Below are positions 20,464-32,189 of a stretch of DNA of 32,349 nucleotides, in pieces. How positions within the stretch are numbered: position 1 is the stretch's first letter; each line of letters begins with the position of its first letter. The position numbers and the translations under genes are program-made. Below the pieces are notes generated by a model. The model was given only the letters and a program-made list of their open reading frames with translations, was not told the origin of the DNA and ran no database searches. The stretch is from Acidobacteriota bacterium. Lineage in GTDB: Bacteria > Actinomycetota > Acidimicrobiia > ATN3. The stretch spans positions 1 through 32,349 of the forward strand of contig QEUQ01000029.1 in the NCBI GenBank assembly GCA_003577105.1. Direction: 5' to 3'.

Positions 20464-21816
20464 CTACGCAGCGTCAGCTGGCGGAATTTCTCGCCAATTC
20501 TGAATGTAGTACTTCTTCGTTGTGATCAGGCTCAGTGAACGGTCGTAGGCGAGCACATTCACAGCGCCATTCGTGTCGAACTGGTCAACCATGACCGATC
20601 CAAAAATGTAGACCTGCGGTCCACCGTTGAGGGTGAAGCTCGAGTACGGAGCGTAGAGCACCATCGACATGACGGGCTTGTTGGCACCGCCAGGCGTACC
20701 AATCTGACTCGTTGACGCCTTGTGGACTCTGAATGCGCCTGCCATTTCTGTCGGATAGAGACCGTCAATTTCGGGTCCTGTCGCCGCTCGGGGCGCGCAC
20801 CCGCCATTTGGCTGGTCCCCGACATTCAGCCAAGCGCCACCATCGAAGTCGAGGTCACCGGATACGTAGATCTCAATTGGATTCCACATGTCCACCGAAT
20901 TATTGGTACACATCGACTGGTTCCCTCCGGCGCCCAGGACCAGGTTGGTGCAGTTATAGACACCCGGGTTCATTGCCGCTACATCCGCACCGGTGAGATT
21001 GCAGTCACCAGACCCATTGTCCCACAGGGCATTGGAGCCTCCAGGTTGTGGTGCTACTACTGGCTCCCACGGATACGGCGTTGGAGGCGGCGGCACGGTG
21101 TTCTGGCACGCGCCGGTAGCGCTCGAGCTCGGTGGCCACAAGACGACGGGAATTTCGTTCCAATCGCTTGCGTTGCCATTGCAGTCAAGTGATCCTGAAG
21201 TGCCAATTAGCGCAGCAGTCAAATTGTTAGGCTCGGGATATCCGGCGCAATAGACAGGATTCGAGACATCGCGGGAGTCATAAGAGCATGCTTGATCCGT
21301 GTCGAGCGGATTACCGCTGAACGAAACGCTTGTACGACCACCAACTGCAACATCAAACCGAGATGTTGTCCGTGCGTCAGCCTTGATTGCTCTCCGAATC
21401 GTGTATGGAGCGTTTGGGCCGCCTATCACAGCCACTGATACGATCTCCCAGCTAAGATCATCTTTTCGAGTAGCGGTGTAGCTGAAGCTCCCCCCACTCA
21501 TTTCGCCTGAGCCAGTCAATGTGTCTGTAATGGACTCGTCGTCAGGGCTTATTTGTTCCAGGCGGAACATCGCCTCGTCGAGACCTGAATTGGCAACTGC
21601 CATCACGCTCAGGTGGGTCCGATCGTATCCAGAATGATTCAAGCCGCTAATTGTCTTGGCCCATACTGCCGCCGCCAGGATTCCCATGATCATCAGTACG
21701 GCCATTGCGATGATCATTGTATTGCCCCCATCGTCGTCAAACTTGCCCCGACACAGTCGCTTAGCTGGTGACATCCCTGCTCTTCTCCTCGCGTTCTGGT
21801 CTCTGAGTCCAATCAT
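20464..21816 (-). CDS. PilX-like pilus assembly protein (triplet 1)
   Basis: About 450 residues from ATG 21816, which has AGAAGG seven bases upstream (GTG/ATG starts at 21858 and 21774 are alternatives). After a short charged leader there is one N-terminal hydrophobic helix (GGNTMIIAMAVLMIMGILAA) followed by an amphipathic stretch with LSVMAVANSGLDEAMFRLE, the PilX_N-type pattern. The large remaining domain is Cys-rich and Gly/Asn/Pro-rich (for example CAGYPEPNNLTAALIG and MNPGVYNCTN), suggesting an exported beta-rich fold with disulfides. It ends in NWREIPPADAA. It lacks the Glu5 of classical prepilins. Likely a minor pilus-tip or assembly component. Last gene of the triplet, 19 bases after the PilW-like gene. 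Confidence 0.75.
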   Translation of the reverse strand: MIGLRDQNARRRAGMSPAKRLCRGKFDDDGGNTMIIAMAVLMIMGILAAAVWAKTISGLNHSGYDRTHLSVMAVANSGLDEAMFRLEQISPDDESITDTLTGSGEMSGGSFSYTATRKDDLSWEIVSVAVIGGPNAPYTIRRAIKADARTTSRFDVAVGGRTSVSFSGNPLDTDQACSYDSRDVSNPVYCAGYPEPNNLTAALIGTSGSLDCNGNASDWNEIPVVLWPPSSSATGACQNTVPPPPTPYPWEPVVAPQPGGSNALWDNGSGDCNLTGADVAAMNPGVYNCTNLVLGAGGNQSMCTNNSVDMWNPIEIYVSGDLDFDGGAWLNVGDQPNGGCAPRAATGPEIDGLYPTEMAGAFRVHKASTSQIGTPGGANKPVMSMVLYAPYSSFTLNGGPQVYIFGSVMVDQFDTNGAVNVLAYDRSLSLITTKKYYIQNWREIPPADAA

Positions 21817-21835
21817 TGAAATGCCTTCTTCACTC

Positions 21836-22528
21836 TCAACATCCAACACCTGCGACACCCCCAGACCACCCGCTCACACCCCCAGGAATCGAATTGCGAA
21901 TCTCCGTATCGGTGCTGGCGTCATATACCGGCGCACCACCGCCCGCTTCAGATCGAATTCTGATCACAATCCTGACGGTGCACACACTCACAATCTGGGG
22001 ATCGACCTGATCCGGAGAACCGGCCGTTGTCGTCAGAATCAAGTCATCTGAATATCCTGAGTAGTACTGGAACACAGGCTGCGCGGCCGTATTCGCCATT
22101 CGAGGTATCAGCACTTCGCGGGTCGGGAGATCTGGGAGCCCAGATCCTGCTGGCACGCACCCCGACAAGCACTCAGCGACCAACTCAGAGGTGGACGTGT
22201 CAACTCTGAATCGCCATTGCTTTCGGTCGTTGCCCTCGACAGATCCAACCCAAAAAGTGACCGAAGTTTCGAATTCCGAAGAATCGGCAACCGCAGACCA
22301 CTCGATCGGATTTGCGCCTCGCAATTCCCGCGTAAGTCTATTAAATGCCACCATCACGGCATTTTGATTATCAACCACTGCAGTAGTACGTCGTTCCTGC
22401 CTAGTAGCCAGCTCAAGAGTTGATAGGATCGCAGTCATTACAATCATCAGAATTGAAGTCGTAATCACAACTTCCATTAGGCTAAAGCCTGAGTCGCCAC
22501 GTCTGTCTCTTGGATTTGACCGAATCAT
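21836..22528 (-). CDS. PilW/PulJ-like minor prepilin (triplet 1)
   Basis: 230 residues from ATG 22528. The type III signal sequence is exact: a basic leader ending RRGDSG, cut after Gly14, then FSLMEVVITTSILMIVMTAI with Glu19 at the +5 position. Helix residues TLELATRQERRTTAVVDNQNAVMVAFNRLTRELRGANP are the PilW/PulJ pattern. The rest (about 95-230) is a beta-rich ectodomain with a few cysteines. ATG 22528 is chosen because it has GAGG eight bases upstream and a short leader; GTG 22555 would overlap the PilV-like gene. The prepilin peptidase expected to cut it is not in this window. Confidence 0.85.
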   Translation of the reverse strand: MIRSNPRDRRGDSGFSLMEVVITTSILMIVMTAILSTLELATRQERRTTAVVDNQNAVMVAFNRLTRELRGANPIEWSAVADSSEFETSVTFWVGSVEGNDRKQWRFRVDTSTSELVAECLSGCVPAGSGLPDLPTREVLIPRMANTAAQPVFQYYSGYSDDLILTTTAGSPDQVDPQIVSVCTVRIVIRIRSEAGGGAPVYDASTDTEIRNSIPGGVSGWSGGVAGVGC

Positions 22529-22548
22529 TTCGCAAACCTCACGAACAT

Positions 22549-23793
22549 TCAGCACACACTTGTCTTGTAGGTGCAGAAGCTCTGCTGAACTGGAGTTGGA
22601 TTACTTGGACCAGTTCCTTTGAATGTCATTGTCGCGTATCCGATGTTGAATCGTTGCCAATTCGACGTAACTTGTGCGAACCAATAGCTGCCAGCAGGAC
22701 TGAGATAGACTGTCTGAGTTCCGAACTTAGTCGGTACTTCTACCCAGACATCGCTGCAATCACCGCTGGTGGAAATCGCAAAGAGGATTGTGTCCAAATT
22801 CCACCCTTGGTTATTGACCTTGATCTTGTAGGGAGTGGCATTTGCCTGATCAGCTGGACTTACGACAGACGGACCCATCAGCTGACAGACAGCCGGTGCG
22901 CCAGGAGTAGTCACCGGCGACGAGTATGCCCACGCTGATGAGCCAGCTGCATTTGTCGCCCGAATCTTCCAGCAGTATTGCGTATTTGGTGGCAGATTGA
23001 TCGCCAAATATGACGTTGAGTTCTCAGGTCTCGGGGGGTCCGTAAGAATCCAATAGTCATCGCTGATCATGTTGCATGAAGGATACGGGGCAACCGAAAA
23101 CGCCAATTCAAATGAAGTCTCGTTGTCAGAGTTGTCATACCAGGTAACAAGACCCTGTGTAGTGTCCGTTAGCATCAACCCAAATTGAACGTTGCTTGCT
23201 TCTATTGGAGGAAACGACGAAGTGCTACCGGGATTCTGCGAGCCCTGCCCTCCGGGGTAGACATCGGACTCCACCTGGAACTGACGAGTGCCAACCTGGT
23301 CAGTCCAGGTGACAACAACCACTACGTGCTTGAAGGCATGCTCGTATGTCACCGATATCCCGGATTGGGCCTGGGTCTCGATGAAGGGAACCCATGTCAC
23401 ATTCTGTCTGATCGTGAAGATCACACCATTGCGATTGATGTCACCGGGATCCACGGGAACCGACAACGCCGTGTCGGTCACCGGCGTGACTGTCTCTGTG
23501 GTAGCTGATGATGACGTGGGGGTCGGCCGCTCGGCCCAATTCGGATCGTCAGCGCTGATTGCAATCGCGTCATACTCTTGCGAGCGAAGCTTCTCAAGCG
23601 CCTCGTTCGCCACCTGAACCGCATTGAGCCGGTGGCGCTGTAGCCCAGACGCCTTGGTAGCCACAACTAGTGTTCCCAAGATCGCGACAATACCCACCAT
23701 GAGAATCGTCAACGCCATCATCAGTTCAATGAGAGAAAATCCATCTTCGCCATTCGCCTGGCGTTCACGGATTCCGGAGATGAGCCGCATCAT
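22549..23793 (-). CDS. PilV-like minor prepilin with fibronectin type III domain (triplet 1)
   Basis: 414 residues. The prepilin signal ends NGEDG, cut after Gly18, then FSLIELMMALTILMVGIVAI with Glu23 at +5. Segment LNAVQVANEALEKLRSQEYD is the PilV helix. Residues 115-180 form a pilin-type beta domain. Residues 196-300 look like a fibronectin type III domain: NVQFGLMLTDTTQGLVTWYD, then the ending PPNTQYCWKIRATNAAGSSAWAYSSP. Residues 305-414 are a further unassigned domain with C-terminal cysteines. Such ectodomains often mediate adhesion, so a pilus-tip adhesin role is possible (inference). ATG start with AAGGGG nine bases upstream. First gene of the triplet; the shared inverted repeat lies 130 bases upstream. 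Confidence 0.85.
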   Translation of the reverse strand: MMRLISGIRERQANGEDGFSLIELMMALTILMVGIVAILGTLVVATKASGLQRHRLNAVQVANEALEKLRSQEYDAIAISADDPNWAERPTPTSSSATTETVTPVTDTALSVPVDPGDINRNGVIFTIRQNVTWVPFIETQAQSGISVTYEHAFKHVVVVVTWTDQVGTRQFQVESDVYPGGQGSQNPGSTSSFPPIEASNVQFGLMLTDTTQGLVTWYDNSDNETSFELAFSVAPYPSCNMISDDYWILTDPPRPENSTSYLAINLPPNTQYCWKIRATNAAGSSAWAYSSPVTTPGAPAVCQLMGPSVVSPADQANATPYKIKVNNQGWNLDTILFAISTSGDCSDVWVEVPTKFGTQTVYLSPAGSYWFAQVTSNWQRFNIGYATMTFKGTGPSNPTPVQQSFCTYKTSVC

Positions 23794-23922: not shown

Positions 23923-23938
23923 TACCCCAATTGGAGTA
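23923..23938. promoter_or_regulatory. Candidate NarL-type operator 1, inverted repeat between divergent genes
   Basis: TACCCCA-AT-TGGAGTA: two 7-base half-sites with a 2-base spacer, one mismatch between the arms. It lies 34 bases before the histidine kinase ATG and 129 bases before the PilV-like start, so it could act on either. The same pattern recurs at 31472-31487 before the second pilin triplet. The 7-2-7 geometry and TAC...GTA ends match the E. coli NarL site (TACYYMT heptamers), apart from the innermost base. Confidence 0.55.
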
Positions 23939-23972
23939 TTTCAGTGTCTAGCTGGGGTTTTGCGGGCACCGA

Positions 23973-25439
23973 ATGACCGCTCGCAACCGCTTCCTGGTCG
24001 TGCTCTCATTTGGAGTTGTAGTCACGGTAGCCTCCCTTGTGGCCTTGTACGGCCGCGAAGAGCTAATGGCGAGAGAGTCCGCAATTGCCCAATCAGAGAC
24101 CGCTGCAGCTGCCGCGGCGGCTGCCATTGACTCGCAACAAGCAGAGGCCGCAGCCTCGGGCGACTTTGCCGCGACGGCGGCGGTCACATCTGACCTGTTT
24201 CGTATTCAACTCGCAAACCCCAGGATCAGGCAGATATCTGCCTTGATGCCAAGTGGCCAACCTGAGACTTTTCGGATTGCGGTCGAGGTTGGCGGTTCTC
24301 CGTCAGCAAATCGGCCTGGCAGCCTCGTGCGCATCGACGACGCCGACGCGAGATCAGCAGCGGATGCAAAGAACTCCGTAAGCTCCTGGAAGGAGGATTC
24401 GGTATCAACGTGGGCGCCAATTCTGGATCGCTCTCGAGTCGCAGGGCTAATTCGCATTGAATACGACGCGGCCGGCATTGGCAGCGGTATTGCCCCTGCC
24501 CTGTTTGCGCTGATGCTCGGACTCCTTGTAACGCTAGTACTTGTGGTTTTCGTGTCACGAAGCATCGGACGACGACTAGGAATACTCCTCGATGGCACTG
24601 GAAAGCTCGCCGAAGGCGATCTCGCGCATCGGGTTGAAGTTCGCGGTCACGACGAGATCTCTGAGCTTGCCGAATCATTCAATTCCATGGCCGATGCCCT
24701 CGAGGAGAACCGCTCCAGCCTGGGAAATGCCATTGCAGAGCTTGGCAGGACCTCCGCCCTAGTCGAAACACGCGCCCGAGAAAATGAAGCTCTGCTCAAG
24801 CGAACAGTAGAGGCTGTCGACGGCGAGCGCCGCCGACTCGCCACGGAACTTCACGACAGCACAATTCAGAGCCTCCAATCGATCGGCATGCTCGCCGAGT
24901 ACGCCGAAATGCTGATAGAGCGAGGTCAGTACGAGGAGGCATCGGAGCGAGTGATCTCACTTCGGCAACGACTCAATGACTCGGTTGCCGAGCTCCGCCG
25001 ACTCCTCTTCGATCTCCGACCTCCCAATCTCGACGACACGGGCCTGGCTTCTGCGCTCGAGCTCCGCCTCAGCGAGGTGTCGGACCTGGGCGACCTGGAG
25101 ACTCGACTAGAGATTGCCGATGATTTGGACATTCCAAATGAGCTGGAGACCGTGATTTACCGCTTTTGCCAAGAAGCACTTTCAAACGTGGTCCGCCACG
25201 CAGAGGCAACCTCGGTCGAAGTCAGAGTGTGGCAACAAGGTGCCGGCTTGCGGGTAGCCGTCGAGGACAACGGAAAGGGATTCGATTCCGACACCCGGCC
25301 TGAGCACGGTCACTTCGGAATCCAAGGCATGAGGGAGCGTGCCGAACTCGCCGGCGGAGAACTCTCGCTCGAGAGCCGCCTCGGTTCGAAGACCAGAGTC
25401 GAACTCACGCTCCCGCTCGGTTCCGACACGCCTGCCTAA
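23973..25439 (+). CDS. NarX/DegS-type sensor histidine kinase with HAMP domain
   Basis: 488 residues. Two transmembrane helices (7-27 and about 174-194) flank an outside sensor region of about 145 residues with an Ala-rich stretch (44-62). A HAMP linker (about 195-247) and coiled coil follow. The HisKA_3 box ERRRLATELHDSTIQSLQSIG holds the phospho-acceptor His294; LRRLLFDLRPPNLDDTGLASAL is the matching second helix. The HATPase domain shows the N box with Asn405 (CQEALSNVVRHA), EDNGKGFD (431-438) and FGIQGMRERAELAGG. This HPK7-type kinase normally partners a NarL/FixJ regulator; one is encoded at 31504. It converges on recG with overlapping stop codons (CTAA). What it senses is unknown. Confidence 0.93.
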   Translation: MTARNRFLVVLSFGVVVTVASLVALYGREELMARESAIAQSETAAAAAAAAIDSQQAEAAASGDFAATAAVTSDLFRIQLANPRIRQISALMPSGQPETFRIAVEVGGSPSANRPGSLVRIDDADARSAADAKNSVSSWKEDSVSTWAPILDRSRVAGLIRIEYDAAGIGSGIAPALFALMLGLLVTLVLVVFVSRSIGRRLGILLDGTGKLAEGDLAHRVEVRGHDEISELAESFNSMADALEENRSSLGNAIAELGRTSALVETRARENEALLKRTVEAVDGERRRLATELHDSTIQSLQSIGMLAEYAEMLIERGQYEEASERVISLRQRLNDSVAELRRLLFDLRPPNLDDTGLASALELRLSEVSDLGDLETRLEIADDLDIPNELETVIYRFCQEALSNVVRHAEATSVEVRVWQQGAGLRVAVEDNGKGFDSDTRPEHGHFGIQGMRERAELAGGELSLESRLGSKTRVELTLPLGSDTPA

Positions 25440-27571
25440 CCGAACTCAAGCCAGCTAACCTCGCCCGACACGAGCCTGTCTGACTCCTCCTTCAACACCG
25501 GATGCGCGTCTAGGTCAGGGTCTCGCTCGAGAAGCTCGTTGGCGAACTCGCGCACTTTGACGATCAACGGGAAGTCCCCCAGCAGGCTGGTAAGCCTCAG
25601 GTCGGTCCTTCCGGCTTGACGAGCGCCGAAGAGCGAGCCTTCACCCCTTAGCTCCAGGTCCTTTTCGGCAAGCTCGAACCCGTCTGACGTGGAACACACC
25701 GCCTTGATGCGCGCGAGAGCGTCTTCACTCTCGGCTTCGGAGACGAGGTAGCAAACTCCGAGCCTTGCACCCCGCCCGATGCGTCCCCTCAACTGGTGGA
25801 GCTGGGACAGGCCGAAGCGCTCGGCTGACTCGATCATCATCACGGTGGCCTCGGGTACGTCAACTCCCACCTCAATGACCGTTGTCGCAACAAGGACTGG
25901 CGTCTCGCCACTCCGAAAGGCTGCCATGGCTGCCTCTTTGTCCGCCGATCGCATGCGGCCATGCAATAGCCCTACGCCGATGCCGGCCAGCGGCCCTTCG
26001 GTCAGGCGCCTGAACTCCTCCTCGGCGGCCGCAGCTTCGAGTTTGGATGACTCCTCCACGAGCGGGCATACGACGAATGCGCGGCCCCCTGCATCAATCT
26101 CCTTCTTGATTTGCTCATATGCCTTGTCACGCGCATCCGGTCGAATCCAGAGTGTCTTGACCGGCGATCTGCCCGGCGGCGTTTCATCAAGCGTCGAGAC
26201 ATCTAGATCTCCATAAATTGTGATTGCGAGTGTGCGCGGAATCGGAGTTGCCGTCATGATCAGCATGTCCGGAACGAGACCGTCTGCTCCCTGTCCACGC
26301 AAGTGAACACGCTGGTGAACTCCAAATCTGTGCTGCTCGTCTATGACCGCAAGACCAAGCGAGGCGAAAGCGACGCCTTCCTGGACTAGCGCATGAGTTC
26401 CAATAAGAACATCTACCTCGCCCCGCCCCACTGCGGCAAGAACTCTTTGACGATCGCGAGTACTCCCCGTGAGTAGTTTGACTCTTACGCCAATCTCCCC
26501 TAGCAGCGGCGCCAGGCCGTAGTAGTGCTGCTCGGCGAGAACCTCGGTGGGAGCCATGAGTGCCCCCTGATGGCCGCCTGCGACAGCAATGCAGAGGGAC
26601 GCAGCGGCCACTACTGTCTTTCCGCTGCCGACCTCGCCTTGGAGCATCCGATGCATTGGAACGGGTGCTCGCATTGACTCCCCGATCTCGGCGATCACTC
26701 GCTGCTGAGCGGCTGTAAGCGGATATGGCAGAGAGTCAATGAGGCTGGTAAGCAACGCCGCTCTGTCGACGTGCGCAATGGCCTTAGATTCCGCCTCGTA
26801 TGCCCGCCTTTTCGTTCCAAGCGCAAGCTGAGTTCGCATCAGCTCATCGACGACTAGTCGCCTGCGGGCTGCTGTCCGGTCTTGCATCGACTCAGGGAAG
26901 TGGATCGCGTTTATGGCAAATGTCCGCTCTTGCACCTTTAGCGCGTTGCGCTCCGCGGGGGTCAGGGACTCGGCAAATGCACCAGCTCGATCCAGCGCCT
27001 CCCAGCAGAGGCGGCGCAGCAAGGCAGAGCTGATTTCGGCCGATGCTGGATACACCGGGACAATCCGCCCGACCTCAAGGCTTGTGCCAATGCCGCTCTC
27101 GCCCTCAATTTTCTCGTAGGACGGCGATGAGATCTGAATGCGCCCTCTGAAAACCTCCGCCTTTCCTGAGATCGCAAACTCCTCGCCCACCTTGAAGTGC
27201 CTTTGGCGGTACGGCTGATTGAACCAGGTCAATCTGATACGTCCGCTGGAGTCGGAGACATCGACCTCTAGAAGACTCAACCGCGGGCGCGGTTTGCGCA
27301 GCGAAACCTTGTCGACTGTGGCGGTGAAAGTCACCTCCTCCCCGAGCGGCAAGTCACGAATGAGAAGAAGCGTTGTTCTGTCGATGTAGTCCCGCGGAAA
27401 GTGATGAAGCAGATCTTCAATTGTCTCAATACCAAGGCCAGCTAGCCCGTCGGCGATTTTCGGCCCTACCCGGGCCAGGGAAGTTACGGGCTCACGCCGG
27501 AGCCGCTCCCAGGTTCGGCCCTTGCGGTGTCCGGGCGATTCCGTCGATGCTGAATTCGTATCAGATCCCAC
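25436..27571 (-). CDS. recG: ATP-dependent DNA helicase RecG
   Basis: 711 residues. Reverses stalled replication forks and processes Holliday junctions. The N-terminal wedge and OB domain include VGPKIADGLAGLGIETIEDLLHHFPRDYID (36-65) and GKAEVFRGRIQISSPSYE. Helicase motifs follow: the Walker A motif LQGEVGSGKTVVA, APTEVLAEQH, the DEQH box as VIDEQHRFGV, MTATPIPRTLA, LLHGRM, VATTVIEVGVDVP and QLRGRIGRG. The C-terminus DLELRGEGSLFGARQAG is typical. GTG start nine bases after the PilX-like gene of triplet 2, with no clear ribosome site or promoter between. In many actinobacteria recG lies downstream of rpmB and a DAK-type phosphatase gene and upstream of rsmD and coaD; here rpmB and rsmD are in the same window but pilin genes intervene. 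Confidence 0.97.
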   Translation of the reverse strand: MGSDTNSASTESPGHRKGRTWERLRREPVTSLARVGPKIADGLAGLGIETIEDLLHHFPRDYIDRTTLLLIRDLPLGEEVTFTATVDKVSLRKPRPRLSLLEVDVSDSSGRIRLTWFNQPYRQRHFKVGEEFAISGKAEVFRGRIQISSPSYEKIEGESGIGTSLEVGRIVPVYPASAEISSALLRRLCWEALDRAGAFAESLTPAERNALKVQERTFAINAIHFPESMQDRTAARRRLVVDELMRTQLALGTKRRAYEAESKAIAHVDRAALLTSLIDSLPYPLTAAQQRVIAEIGESMRAPVPMHRMLQGEVGSGKTVVAAASLCIAVAGGHQGALMAPTEVLAEQHYYGLAPLLGEIGVRVKLLTGSTRDRQRVLAAVGRGEVDVLIGTHALVQEGVAFASLGLAVIDEQHRFGVHQRVHLRGQGADGLVPDMLIMTATPIPRTLAITIYGDLDVSTLDETPPGRSPVKTLWIRPDARDKAYEQIKKEIDAGGRAFVVCPLVEESSKLEAAAAEEEFRRLTEGPLAGIGVGLLHGRMRSADKEAAMAAFRSGETPVLVATTVIEVGVDVPEATVMMIESAERFGLSQLHQLRGRIGRGARLGVCYLVSEAESEDALARIKAVCSTSDGFELAEKDLELRGEGSLFGARQAGRTDLRLTSLLGDFPLIVKVREFANELLERDPDLDAHPVLKEESDRLVSGEVSWLEFG

Positions 27572-27580
27572 ATGGCGATA

Positions 27581-29137
27581 CTACGCGCTGGGCGGAGGCA
27601 CCTCGCGCCACGCGAGCTGCCGCCAACTTGTGTTGCTCGGCTCCATGAATCGGGGAGGCTGGACATAGCCGAGGCGTGAATCGTAAACGTAATCCTTGAC
27701 ATACCCGCGGCTTGTCGAGTTGCCGCAACTTGTGCCGCCCAAAGCGACAACCCCACGACTCTTCTGCGCAAAAGCCCCGACGATCTTCAGGGTGCCACTA
27801 CACCCGGAAAATGTCGTGGAGTCCGGGGGGTTGGTTATGCCATATGCGTGAACGTCGCCGTTCAGAGCGAGCATCGCTGCGTGGATTTCTGGGTTTGTCG
27901 GTCGCCGCATCCAATACGGCCGATCCGACCTGACGCGATCGTCGCCTACATATATGCTTTCATTCGCGATGAGCCCTATCACATCTTTGGATGTGTCGCT
28001 CTCGTCATCAAGGCGCAAAGACTTCCAGACCCAAATGCTGTTTTCTGAGCCGATCGTGATCTGCCCATGCCAACCGGATTGCGGATTGTGAGGAGTACCC
28101 ACATATGCCTTCCCTAGTGACGTTGGGTTACTGGTCTTTCTGCCCACATAGATCACGCCATTGGGTGGAGGGAGCCGGTCAGTAACGGTGCTCGTCGGCG
28201 GAGCATCTCCGAGTGTCCGAGCCTGCGCAGGACCGGGCGGAACACCGTTATTCCCGTATTTCGAGTACACCCGAATTAGTCCGTTGGCGAGTGGAGTGAT
28301 CTCGATCGGACCCCAATAGACATAGCCGCCATTCTCCGCATCTTGACGAAGCTTGGCGTTGGAAATCGGCAAAACACTGTCACAGAACTGGGTCAAGCCG
28401 CATTGGTTGACGTCCCCCTCGTAGTTCGGTGTTGAAACATCGCAATCAGCCTGGGAGTCATCTTCATATACCGTGCCTCTACCGGACTCGACCGTGGATC
28501 TAAACGTCGTCTGGTCGCAGGTTTCGACCATTATGAAGTCGTTGGACTTGATAGGGCCATCAAGCACGTCACCATCGGCAAAACGAATGTCGCATGGGCT
28601 TGACTTCTTCTGATATCGAAGACAACTAGCATTCTGCCCGTTGTAAGTCTCGAAGTCCGTAAAATACATCCAGTCAAGGAACGACTTGCGTTCCATATCG
28701 ACCTGGACAGTCCGAGTGACTCCCTTTACCCTGCCGGACGCTTCAATTGTGACAGTCAGTGGCTCTCCCACAACTTTTGGCTGCGGAATCACCTTGATCC
28801 GATAGTCGCCTTCGCCGTTTGGAACCGGTGTCCAGGTCAGCTCGCCTGGGAAATACTCTGGATCGCGCATCGACGGATCAGTGATGTAGTACTGAGGGTC
28901 TTCATTCATCTTCCACAGATAAGCATTAAGACCGGCTTCTGCCGAATACAGGGCACGAACCCACTCTCGTTCATACGCACCAATAGAGTTATCCCCGAGG
29001 GCGTAACTCATGGCGGATATTGCCAAGAGAGTGCCCACGACACCCATCGACAAAACGGTGACCAGCGACATACCTTCATCGTTGTTCTTTCGGGTAGCCC
29101 AAAGAATTCGAGTGAACACACTTAGGTTTGATCTCAT
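27581..29137 (-). CDS. PilX-like pilus assembly protein (triplet 2)
   Basis: About 518 residues from ATG 29137 (GGAAG eight bases upstream; GTG 29146 is an alternative overlapping the previous stop). One N-terminal hydrophobic helix (GMSLVTVLSMGVVGTLLAIS) is followed by EWVRALYSAEAGLNAYLWKM, the PilX_N-type pattern that also occurs in triplet 1. The rest is a large beta-rich, Cys-containing ectodomain with paired Cys segments (CLRYQKKSSPC, CGLTQFC, CSGTLK with SCGNS). A MLALNGDVHAYGI segment near the C-terminus resembles the MVLYAPYSSFTLNG region of the other PilX-like protein in position. It ends in AWREVPPPSA, close to the ending of that protein. Probably exported and disulfide-bonded. recG starts nine bases downstream. 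Confidence 0.75.
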   Translation of the reverse strand: MRSNLSVFTRILWATRKNNDEGMSLVTVLSMGVVGTLLAISAMSYALGDNSIGAYEREWVRALYSAEAGLNAYLWKMNEDPQYYITDPSMRDPEYFPGELTWTPVPNGEGDYRIKVIPQPKVVGEPLTVTIEASGRVKGVTRTVQVDMERKSFLDWMYFTDFETYNGQNASCLRYQKKSSPCDIRFADGDVLDGPIKSNDFIMVETCDQTTFRSTVESGRGTVYEDDSQADCDVSTPNYEGDVNQCGLTQFCDSVLPISNAKLRQDAENGGYVYWGPIEITPLANGLIRVYSKYGNNGVPPGPAQARTLGDAPPTSTVTDRLPPPNGVIYVGRKTSNPTSLGKAYVGTPHNPQSGWHGQITIGSENSIWVWKSLRLDDESDTSKDVIGLIANESIYVGDDRVRSDRPYWMRRPTNPEIHAAMLALNGDVHAYGITNPPDSTTFSGCSGTLKIVGAFAQKSRGVVALGGTSCGNSTSRGYVKDYVYDSRLGYVQPPRFMEPSNTSWRQLAWREVPPPSA

Positions 29138-29142
29138 TGTTC

Positions 29143-29892
29143 TCACTTCCAGAATCCGGCAGAACGGATGAAAATCGACGTCTCAATCGTGCTGGCTCCG
29201 ATTGCCAGGTTTGGATCACGATCCACGTACAAGACCACCGAAACAATTGACACCTGAGTAAGCTGCTGACAACCGAGATATCCCCCTGGCTCCGATGGTG
29301 TCAGCGGACTGGTTGTATCTGACAAATAGCGAAATATCGCTTGTTCCGTTCCGTGGGCTCCATTCACCACAACACGATTGTTTGCGGCGCCCGCAGCGTT
29401 TGTTATTTCTTCGCGCTGATCTTCGTTAGGAGCACTGAAATCTCTTGTGGCCATCCACATTTGGTTTGTCGAGTCTCTTGAGAACCGCACCCGCACTACC
29501 CGGCCTTCAGAAGGCACTTTGTAGAAGGCAATTGAATTTGGACCAGCCTCGGTCAGGGTATATGTATTCGAATAGCTGCCAAGCGGATTAGTCGTACATG
29601 TGTCGGGAGTTGACGCCATGTACCGTGTCTCGGTCTTCCCCGTAGCCATGCGGATTTCTTTTGAAAGACGATCACCGATGGCTCGCCCCTCCTGGAGTGC
29701 CATAGTTCGCTCTTGATTGCTTTGAGATGTGCGCATCCACGTATCGAAGCTCGCTCCGCCAGCGCTTACGAGAATTGTGAGAAGGAGCGTCGTAACTACC
29801 ACTTCGTGTATCGAGACGCCGGCGTCACGGCGGGTACTGCCCTGGCTCGCAGTCCTTCGACTCATCAGGCGTCGTCCGGCAAGAGTCCGCAT
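29143..29892 (-). CDS. PilW-like minor prepilin (triplet 2)
   Basis: 249 residues. The leader RRDAG, cut after Gly25, is followed by VSIHEVVVTTLLLTILVSAG with Glu30 at +5. Val replaces the usual Phe at +1 and His precedes the Glu, so the signal is degenerate but workable. The stretch ERTMALQEGRAIGDRLSKEIRMATG is the PilW/PulJ helix pattern. The beta-rich ectodomain ends IFIRSAGFWK. ATG start immediately after the TAA of the PilV-like gene, with GGTGAG upstream. Position and architecture match the PilW-like gene of triplet 1, but the ectodomains differ strongly. Confidence 0.8.
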   Translation of the reverse strand: MRTLAGRRLMSRRTASQGSTRRDAGVSIHEVVVTTLLLTILVSAGGASFDTWMRTSQSNQERTMALQEGRAIGDRLSKEIRMATGKTETRYMASTPDTCTTNPLGSYSNTYTLTEAGPNSIAFYKVPSEGRVVRVRFSRDSTNQMWMATRDFSAPNEDQREEITNAAGAANNRVVVNGAHGTEQAIFRYLSDTTSPLTPSEPGGYLGCQQLTQVSIVSVVLYVDRDPNLAIGASTIETSIFIRSAGFWK

Positions 29893-31191
29893 TTAGCTCA
29901 CCACCACCGTTACCTGTTCACCGTCCGTCACGATCGGATAGACGACGGTCTGCTTGTACGGCGCTGGAGGATTCACCGTGAGGATGTATGGCCCCCTGAA
30001 CACGCCCGATCGGTACGACTTGCCATTTGAGTCACTCGTCGGCATCGTGACTGTCTGTCCGCAGTTACTCACCAAGCCAATGGAAGCGCCCTGGATTGGA
30101 CTTTGCGTGCTTCCGCTGATTACCTCAACTGTGAGTGAAATTGTCGAAGGCGGAGCGCCTTTGGTAGCTACAACGAGGCTATTCGTACCGGGTTCGACGA
30201 GCTGGTCAGTCAGGCTGCCGGTCAGCGCCACCATGCTCATTCCGATGCAATGAAAACCGGTGCCCGCGACGTCATATCTGCCGGGGAACAAGTTGCTTAT
30301 CACCAGCGGATTTGTGACGCTTCCTTGGAAGATGGGATTCGCCGACTGATATGAAACGGCCACTCCCATCAACTCCGGCGGATAGGCGAGCTGTGTGCCG
30401 GTCAAGTCCTCGAGCGTTACCTCGACTGTGGCTGGCTGACCCATCACGATGGCGACAGGCGTCTTTACTCCAACCTCCACCCAGATATTGGAGACACTCG
30501 CAGTCGGCTTTCGCTCAGGACCGATGTATCCCGGCAATGTCGCGGTCGCTTCATACCAGCCAGCCGTCCGATATGCGAAGAAGGCTGTACCAGTTACGTC
30601 TGTGTTGAGTGTTTCTGTTTCGAGCGTTGAAACCCTTACCAGCTCGACAGTCGCGCCAATCAGTGGGTTTCCCACGTGATCAACTACGCCAACTTCAACA
30701 TGTCCGGAATACTTGTTGAAGATGTCTCCGGGCGGGGCAATGTAGGTAGTAGCCGTCACTGGCTTCATTGAGCCCATGTTCTCCCAGGTGATTTCAATCG
30801 TCACTCTGAAATAGTCGGGGGATCCCGAGTCGGGGTTTGCGGGGTTCGTCGCCCAATCGACGTTGATGGTCTCGTAGAGCGTGTGAGTACCCACCTGGAA
30901 CGGTTCCGCGATGTACTTGCCGTCGTAGTCGGTCATGATCCGCATGTAGTCCGAATATGCCCAGGAACTGATCCGTTCGAGTTCCCGCTGCGCATATGCA
31001 GTCGCGTCTGCACGTAGCCGCGTGACCTGTTGAACCTTCATCGTGCCAATTAGCAGACTCAGAATCGAAACCGAAACGATGAGAAGAATTGACATCGACA
31101 CAACGGCTTCCATTAGCGAGAAGCCCTGGTCGAGATTGGTTCGGCGCTCTCGCCTCAGGCGCTCAAATACCCTGGTAGTCGCTGACAACAC
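29893..31191 (-). CDS. PilV-like minor prepilin with carboxypeptidase-regulatory-like repeats (triplet 2)
   Basis: About 432 residues from GTG 31191 (GGGGGA six bases upstream; GTG 31197 would abut that site). The prepilin signal ends TNLDQG, cut after Gly23, then FSLMEAVVSMSILLIVSVSI with Glu28 at +5. The helix continues DATAYAQRELERISSWAYSD. Residues about 163-225 look like a carboxypeptidase-regulatory-like beta sandwich (GVVDHVGNPLIGATVELVRV, then DVTGTAFFAYRTAGWYEATA), and a second related copy is at about 353-432 (TVEVISGSTQSPIQGASIGL). These are common surface and adhesin modules. It is first in triplet 2 and has the same role by position as the fibronectin-containing PilV-like protein of triplet 1. 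Confidence 0.83.
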   Translation of the reverse strand: MLSATTRVFERLRRERRTNLDQGFSLMEAVVSMSILLIVSVSILSLLIGTMKVQQVTRLRADATAYAQRELERISSWAYSDYMRIMTDYDGKYIAEPFQVGTHTLYETINVDWATNPANPDSGSPDYFRVTIEITWENMGSMKPVTATTYIAPPGDIFNKYSGHVEVGVVDHVGNPLIGATVELVRVSTLETETLNTDVTGTAFFAYRTAGWYEATATLPGYIGPERKPTASVSNIWVEVGVKTPVAIVMGQPATVEVTLEDLTGTQLAYPPELMGVAVSYQSANPIFQGSVTNPLVISNLFPGRYDVAGTGFHCIGMSMVALTGSLTDQLVEPGTNSLVVATKGAPPSTISLTVEVISGSTQSPIQGASIGLVSNCGQTVTMPTSDSNGKSYRSGVFRGPYILTVNPPAPYKQTVVYPIVTDGEQVTVVVS

Positions 31192-31394
31192 AGCCACTCC
31201 CCCTTTGTGGCCCGGAACAGGGGGAAATGTGCGCGGCTATTGCAGAAAGGGCTATTGCCCAGCCACCAAGCACACTCCCGCTGGGAGGGCCACGGTCTCC
31301 ATTCATTCTTGCTATCGGCGGGGAACCGCAATCCCCTTGAGTCACCGTGACGCTCTAATTGACAGCCACGTCAGTCACGGAACTTCTGCGTTTC

Positions 31395-31403
31395 ATGTTA
31401 GCA
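31395..31403 (-). promoter_or_regulatory. Possible extended -10 promoter element of pilin triplet 2
   Basis: TGCTAACAT on the minus strand, matching TG-n-TATAAT at four of six hexamer positions. No good -35 box is visible at 17 bases, as expected if an activator bound at the nearby 31467-31487 repeats is needed. The repeats lie about 70-90 bases upstream. Confidence 0.4.
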
Positions 31404-31471
31404 GGGTCAATAAGCGCTTGCTACGCTAATGCGGAGTAATTTGGGGATGAAAATATATCCGTCTAATGGAG

Positions 31472-31487
31472 TACTCCATTTGGAGTA
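31472..31487. promoter_or_regulatory. Candidate NarL-type operator 2, perfect 7-2-7 inverted repeat
   Basis: TACTCCA-TT-TGGAGTA: the two 7-base arms are perfectly complementary, with a 2-base spacer. It overlaps the palindrome TGGAGTACTCCA, giving three GGAGTA-type half-sites in 21 bases. It lies 17 bases past the response regulator stop and upstream of triplet 2. Site 1 at 23923 differs at one base of one arm and in the spacer. Confidence 0.6.
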
Positions 31488-31503: not shown

Positions 31504-32157
31504 CTAGCTGACCAGGCCAGACCTGAGCGCGATTGCCACGGCCTGAGCGCGATCCGCAGCTCCAAGCTTTTGAAAGATTGACTGAAGGTGCGTCTTGACT
31601 GTAAGCGGACTGATGTGAAGAGTAGCCCCGATTTCCCGATTTGACTTGCCTTCGCATAGAACTGTGAGGACCTCGAGTTCACGCTCCGACAAGTCAAAGC
31701 TCTCAATGCGCTCGCCCTCGTGCATCGACTCAACGAGTGCTAGCGCGGCCCCCGGATCGAGCGCGACTTTGCCTGAATGCGCCGTGCGGACTGCCGCTGC
31801 AATCTCGTCAGCGCCTGCAGTCTTGAGCAGATAACCCGATGCACCCGCGTCCATGGCCGACTTCACATAGTCACGATCGTCGAAGGTCGTGAGCATCACA
31901 ACCTTCACCTCGGGAAGTGCCTCTTTTAGCTGCCTGGTAGCCTCAATTCCATCAAGGTCAGGCATGCGAATATCCATGAGAACCACATCTGGAGCCAGCT
32001 CAGGTACAGCGTCAAGTGCGGCTATTCCGCTACCGGCCTCACCGACGACCTCGAGGTCGTCGATCAGACCTAGACGAAGAGTGACACCGTCTCGCACAAT
32101 CCCGTGATCGTCGACGATCATCACTCTGATTGGCGCGCCAGCACTCGCCGAGCCCAT
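31504..32157 (-). CDS. NarL/FixJ-family response regulator
   Basis: 217 residues from ATG 32157, chosen because GGAGG lies just upstream (GTG 32181 adds eight residues and has no ribosome site). Receiver domain: acidic pair Asp16-Asp17 (IVDDHGIVRDG), phospho-acceptor Asp62 (VVLMDIRMPDLDGIEA), Thr90 and Lys112 (YLLKTAGADEI), all present. C-terminal LuxR-type helix-turn-helix: LSERELEVLTVLCEGKSNREIG, then ISPLTVKTHLQSIFQKLGAADR. It is a cytoplasmic DNA-binding regulator activated by phosphorylation. No kinase is adjacent. The only one in the window is the HisKA_3-type kinase at 23973, the correct class to be its partner. It is divergent from rpmB and upstream of pilin triplet 2. Confidence 0.95.
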   Translation of the reverse strand: MGSASAGAPIRVMIVDDHGIVRDGVTLRLGLIDDLEVVGEAGSGIAALDAVPELAPDVVLMDIRMPDLDGIEATRQLKEALPEVKVVMLTTFDDRDYVKSAMDAGASGYLLKTAGADEIAAAVRTAHSGKVALDPGAALALVESMHEGERIESFDLSERELEVLTVLCEGKSNREIGATLHISPLTVKTHLQSIFQKLGAADRAQAVAIALRSGLVS

Positions 32158-32189
32158 CACTCCTCCGAATTCGGGATTCACCGTTCGCG

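Follow-up and report, generated by a model that had tools for sequence, protein, structure and literature searches.

Our analysis indicates that one short inverted repeat, present only twice in the genome, before both of its sets of minor pilins and beside the genes of a sensor kinase and a response regulator, is probably the switch by which that kinase-regulator pair controls the pili. Both copies lie in the window, by which we mean the whole stretch of 32,349 nucleotides that was analysed. The sole other genome of the order that we compared, G001, belongs to a different family, and the conservation described below rests on that one comparison. The two copies and the smaller elements near them are as follows.

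23923..23938, no strand: site 1 (sequence, genome search, orthologous G001 site at L044:13966-13981)
23953..23959, no strand: possible extra half-site TGGGGTT, 6/7 (chance match possible)
31432..31438, no strand: possible extra half-site CGGAGTA, 6/7 (chance match possible)
31465..31480, no strand: overlapping palindrome AATGGAGTACTCCATT (sequence, shuffle test, half-site scan)
31472..31487, no strand: site 2 (sequence, genome search)

Site 1, TACCCCA-AT-TGGAGTA, is an imperfect 7-2-7 inverted repeat in which six of the seven arm pairs match, and site 2, TACTCCA-TT-TGGAGTA, is a perfect one (7/7); their right arms are identical and a single base distinguishes their left arms. Overlapping site 2 is another perfect palindrome, AATGGAGTACTCCATT, which adds a third TGGAGTA-type heptamer (start 31467), so that three heptamers are found in about 22 bases. 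Site 1 is inside the 179-bp spacer between the divergent pilV1 (start 23793, minus strand) and kinase genes (ATG 23973, plus strand), with 34 bases between it and the kinase ATG. Site 2 is inside the 306-bp spacer that separates the stop codon of the regulator gene (31504) from pilV2 on the same strand (GTG 31197, minus), with 16 bases between it and the stop codon. An earlier note on this DNA had described the same coordinates, arm differences, perfection of site 2 and overlapping palindrome, all of which proved exact when the sequence was read again, and it had correctly placed the repeats upstream of minus-strand pilin triplets, adjoining the end of the regulator gene and the start of the kinase gene. 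No sigma-70-like promoter was recognised close to either site.

The genome that was searched comprises 2,867,214 bp in 104 contigs and is 95% complete. The pattern TACYCCA-N2-TGGRGTA has exactly two exact matches in it, which are site 1 and site 2, and nowhere in the genome does the pattern occur with a single mismatch. Across 395 genomes of the class the exact pattern occurs five times in total, and the three occurrences other than site 1 and site 2 are all inside reading frames. When the two intergenic regions were shuffled with their dinucleotides kept, a matched shared inverted repeat (spacers of 0-10, with 13 or more of the 14 arm bases in agreement) appeared in 0 of 6,000 trials. The number of three-mismatch places in the window alone, two found against 1.75 expected, is uninformative since both matches have no mismatches at all. 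Two short palindromes can be alike by chance, and these are short sequences that were noticed after the fact, but the uniqueness in the genome, the rarity in the class, the outcome of the shuffles and the conservation of site 1 in G001 make this explanation extremely improbable. Because of the first three of these we conclude, as far as sequence evidence goes, that both promoters share one real element; the genome-wide scan that the earlier note had called for finds the repeat above chance and confined to the two pilin promoters. A search allowing two mismatches gave 11 further places genome-wide, nine within reading frames and two in inter-frame gaps with no pilin nearby, as against 21 places in all for the reversed control pattern. 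With a count below that of the control, no wider weak regulon is visible, and we do not claim one.

The genes downstream of the two repeats form minor-pilin operons of the order pilV-pilW-pilX-like.

22549..23793, minus strand: minor pilin 1 of triplet 1, PilV-like, pilV1 (N-methylation motif, Pfam)
21836..22555, minus strand: minor pilin 2 of triplet 1, PilW-like, pilW1 (N-methylation motif, Pfam)
20464..21858, minus strand: third protein of triplet 1, in the PilX position (DUF7305)
29893..31197, minus strand: minor pilin 1 of triplet 2, PilV-like, pilV2 (CarboxypepD_reg/SpaA-like beta domains)
29143..29892, minus strand: minor pilin 2 of triplet 2, in the PilW position, pilW2 (operon position and same-position gene in G001)
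27581..29146, minus strand: third protein of triplet 2, pilX2 (PilX_N just under the Pfam cut-off; G001 orthologue 55% identical)

The N_methyl motif was found in pilV1, pilW1 and pilV2, and PilX_N weakly in pilX2, while pilW2, which has no Pfam match, is named by position alone. Although it stands in the PilX position, the third protein of triplet 1 has its match in DUF7305 and not in PilX_N. In PilV2 the pilin helix is followed by beta domains of the carboxypeptidase-regulatory-like and SpaA/prealbumin-like types, which would be fitting for an adhesive pilus tip. PilV1 and PilV2 are 32% identical over 96 residues, in the N-terminal pilin region only, and the proteins in the PilX position of the two triplets have next to no similarity. 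By these comparisons the triplets are old, separate sets and not the products of a recent duplication. A copied promoter or a recent operon duplication is accordingly rejected as the source of the repeat. The core type IV pilus machinery is also present in the genome, on contig C73, where we recognised, by reading the sequences and not by profile search, the major pilin PilA, a prepilin peptidase, PilM/N/O-like proteins, and assembly-ATPase and platform-like proteins. No copy of the site was found at these core pilus genes.

The syntenic locus of G001 has the order coaD and rsmD, pilin, kinase, recG, regulator, rpmB. That regulator, recG, kinase and pilin are neighbours there as well supports the pairing of the kinase with the regulator. 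The orthologous pilin-kinase spacer of G001 contains TCCCCCA-AA-TGGAGTA (L044:13966-13981), one mismatch from the pattern, in the same place as site 1 and with a weaker dyad (5/7 pairs). The best ungapped match between the spacers of the window and of G001, GATTTTTCGATACCCCAATTGGAGTA versus GATAATTAGATCCCCCAAATGGAGTA (21/26 identical), spans the site, and the remainder of the spacer aligns poorly, so that the site is its best-conserved segment. G001 (2 Mb) has four matches with at most one mismatch, from which about 3e-4 would be expected in the 154-bp spacer. Its other one-mismatch sites, one inside the pilW2 coding sequence, one in a gene read as rpoA and one without a gene assignment, were treated as chance. 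The G001 site is 17 bp from the likely start of the kinase gene, for which we took the TTG at L044:13999, the point at which homology to the kinase of the window sets in; under the longer mechanical frame of that gene the site would fall within it. The first pilin operon of G001 (L044:12518-13850, G001:C12) looks damaged: its PilV-like frame meets an in-frame stop after the N-terminal helix and continues into a C-terminal portion that is PilX-like, and the PilW-like gene is missing, which either decay or an assembly error would fit.

The second pilin operon of G001, that of the PilX2 orthologue, is on another contig, behind an extra gene for a zinc-ribbon membrane protein, and has no such site upstream. 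The extra gene (L181:4597-5631, G001:C3) precedes the triplet and stops where the triplet begins, and the two apparently share an operon. As this operon stands elsewhere and lacks the site, site 2 is, by this sequence comparison, not conserved in G001; either triplet 2 was moved beside the regulator gene in the lineage of the window and acquired site 2, or the arrangement was lost in G001. The minor-pilin operons of seven genomes of the class from other orders have no upstream site with fewer than four mismatches. In genus g81, of another order (L222 G205:C226, L223 G145:C227), a HisKA_3-type kinase and a NarL-class regulator are encoded 5-6 kb from a PilV2/PilX2-like operon, and no TAC...GTA dyad precedes the pilins of either genome. 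This linkage is a loose parallel only, possibly an independent case. The expectation that the repeat would be kept before orthologous pilin triplets is thus borne out for site 1, in the same place in G001, and fails for site 2 and in the other orders examined.

The conserved copy is the one that adjoins the kinase gene, whose ATG is 34 bp away here and whose likely start is 17 bp away in G001, and the second pilin operon of G001 has no site. It could be argued from this that site 1 mainly autoregulates the kinase gene, with pilin control a secondary role or one that belongs to site 2 alone in the lineage of the window. However, site 2 stands before pilV2 with no kinase gene close by, and site 1 is common to divergent genes, which makes both roles compatible; we consider this reading unlikely. 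Even less can be said for the repeats acting as RNA hairpins, of the attenuator or terminator kind, and not as DNA sites. The RNA of site 2 can make a 6-bp stem with a 4-base loop, but neither strand of the site 1 repeat folds into a separate hairpin, and pairing is poorer in the G001 copy. A search for terminator-like sites found none at either repeat and there was no Rfam match, and with site 1 folding, terminator search and Rfam all negative we rejected this reading as having hardly any probability. We treat both repeats as DNA sites with a probable role in pilin control. The neighbouring signalling genes, and recG, are as follows.

31504..32181, minus strand: NarL/FixJ (LuxR-class) response regulator with receiver and GerE HTH (Pfam, nearest structures); proposed binder
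23973..25439, plus strand: membrane histidine kinase with HAMP, HisKA_3 and HATPase_c (Pfam); candidate partner of the regulator, its gene perhaps controlled from site 1
25436..27571, minus strand: recG, neighbour of the kinase gene here and in the family of G001, and outside the system

The regulator matches PF00072 with 97.6 bits and PF00196 with 68.2 bits, both above the cut-off, which places it in the NarL/FixJ (LuxR) class; a Pfam search found no AAA+ domain in it. Its nearest solved structures are VraR, DevR, ChrA, DesR and NarL. The protein classes given in the earlier note, a NarL/FixJ regulator and a kinase of the cognate class, agree with the Pfam results, Response_reg with GerE for the regulator and HAMP/HisKA_3/HATPase_c for the kinase. 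The G001 orthologue of the regulator is 63% identical, and the DNA-reading helix region, SPLTVKTHLQSIF, is the same in both and differs in three other regulators compared, as would be expected if the target sequence is conserved. A HisKA_3-type kinase is encoded near the regulator in both families of the order. The best relative of the kinase in all searches is its G001 orthologue at the syntenic place (44%, 340 bits), the next best in G001 scoring 110 bits, and a scan of GTDB contigs with the kinase brought up nothing nearer than 38% identity and hence no further orthologues. The kinase also has paralogues that lack an adjoining regulator.

Other NarL-class regulators are common in the genome, which has 36 regulator matches, and another regulator could be the binder. 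In that case the repeats would be real operators for a protein encoded elsewhere, either another LuxR-class regulator or a one-component dimer, and the two-component system beside them would be incidental. Palindromic operators suit many dimeric families, and binding by the linked regulator is a prediction. Set against this, the regulator and kinase genes adjoin exactly the two places of the repeat, another family has kept this neighbourhood, and the heptamer is similar to the one known for the NarL class, so that we think a different binder rather improbable, if not negligible. The reading we prefer, and hold to be likely, is that the NarL/VraR-class regulator binds the 7-2-7 operators and controls both minor-pilin operons and probably its own kinase gene.

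On this reading we infer that the kinase would supply phosphate in response to a periplasmic signal, and dimers of the phosphorylated regulator, the most likely single DNA-binding protein, would occupy both repeats, each GerE domain reading one TACYCCA heptamer across the 2-bp spacer in the manner of NarL. Site 1 would then govern the first minor-pilin operon, from pilV1, and probably the kinase gene, and site 2 with its three overlapping heptamers the second, from pilV2. The two sets of subunits, for priming of the pilus or for its tip, would thus be switched together, and separately from the core pilus genes on their other contig. The positions of the sites, about 130 bp (site 1) and about 275 bp (site 2) upstream of the pilin start codons, suggest activation of the pilins rather than repression. 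The local regulon first proposed stands in so far as the repeat is unique to the two promoters and site 1 and the regulator-recG-kinase-pilin neighbourhood are kept; conservation before the second triplet is not supported by the genomes compared. A bolder reading, which we offer tentatively and consider doubtful, is that a single two-component system, whose VraR-like regulator reads a NarL-like operator, keeps two dissimilar minor-pilin sets in step. One of these sets would have come under its control in the lineage of the window only, when it landed next to the regulator gene with a new site of three heptamers, and the kinase may respond to the assembly of pilins and so feed back on tip composition.

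The closest known parallel to the operator is that of Escherichia coli NarL/NarP, which shares the inverted heptamers, the 2-bp spacer, the outer TAC and the class of regulator (receiver and GerE). The consensus of the NarL heptamer is TACYYMT; here TACYCC fits and the innermost base is A, not T, in both arms. NarL binds inverted heptamers two bases apart as a 7-2-7 dimer, a geometry that both our sites have, and its engineered strong site TACCCCTAAAGGGGTA is identical to site 1 at 12/16 positions (PMC4549865), which upholds the likeness, save at the innermost base, that the earlier note had drawn. By geometry the element would work like a NarL site, and we do not file it as one because that base is off consensus. 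By score the regulator here is also nearer to VraR, DevR and DesR than it is to NarL, and the genes that it is predicted to control encode minor pilins instead of proteins of nitrate respiration. To VraR/LiaR-type regulators it is linked by the closest solved structures and a common TVKTH core of the recognition helix. The known role of VraR is in the response to cell-wall stress, whereas no cell-wall stress targets were seen here.

Two-component control of type IV pilins is also known from PilS-PilR. PilR is an NtrC-type sigma-54 activator, unlike the present regulator, which has no AAA+ domain, and AlgR belongs to the LytTR family and not to the NarL/GerE class. The title of a reference in PMC12265715 reports that PilS senses pilins within the membrane, and in Pseudomonas aeruginosa the FimS-AlgR two-component system controls the fimU-pilVWXY1E minor-pilin operon (PMC5979040). 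The switch proposed here is like FimS-AlgR in acting on minor pilins, and unlike it in using another class of regulator and in having one common operator for two dissimilar sets in place of a single operon. It would give a little-sampled lineage, with two genomes of the order compared, a precise operator and, for the tip proteins of its type IV pili, a regulon of two operons, and would link a sensor kinase to pilus composition there. NarL-like operator geometry would be extended to pilin control by a VraR-like regulator with no new kind of mechanism, and the arrangement, neat as it is, is of a familiar kind.
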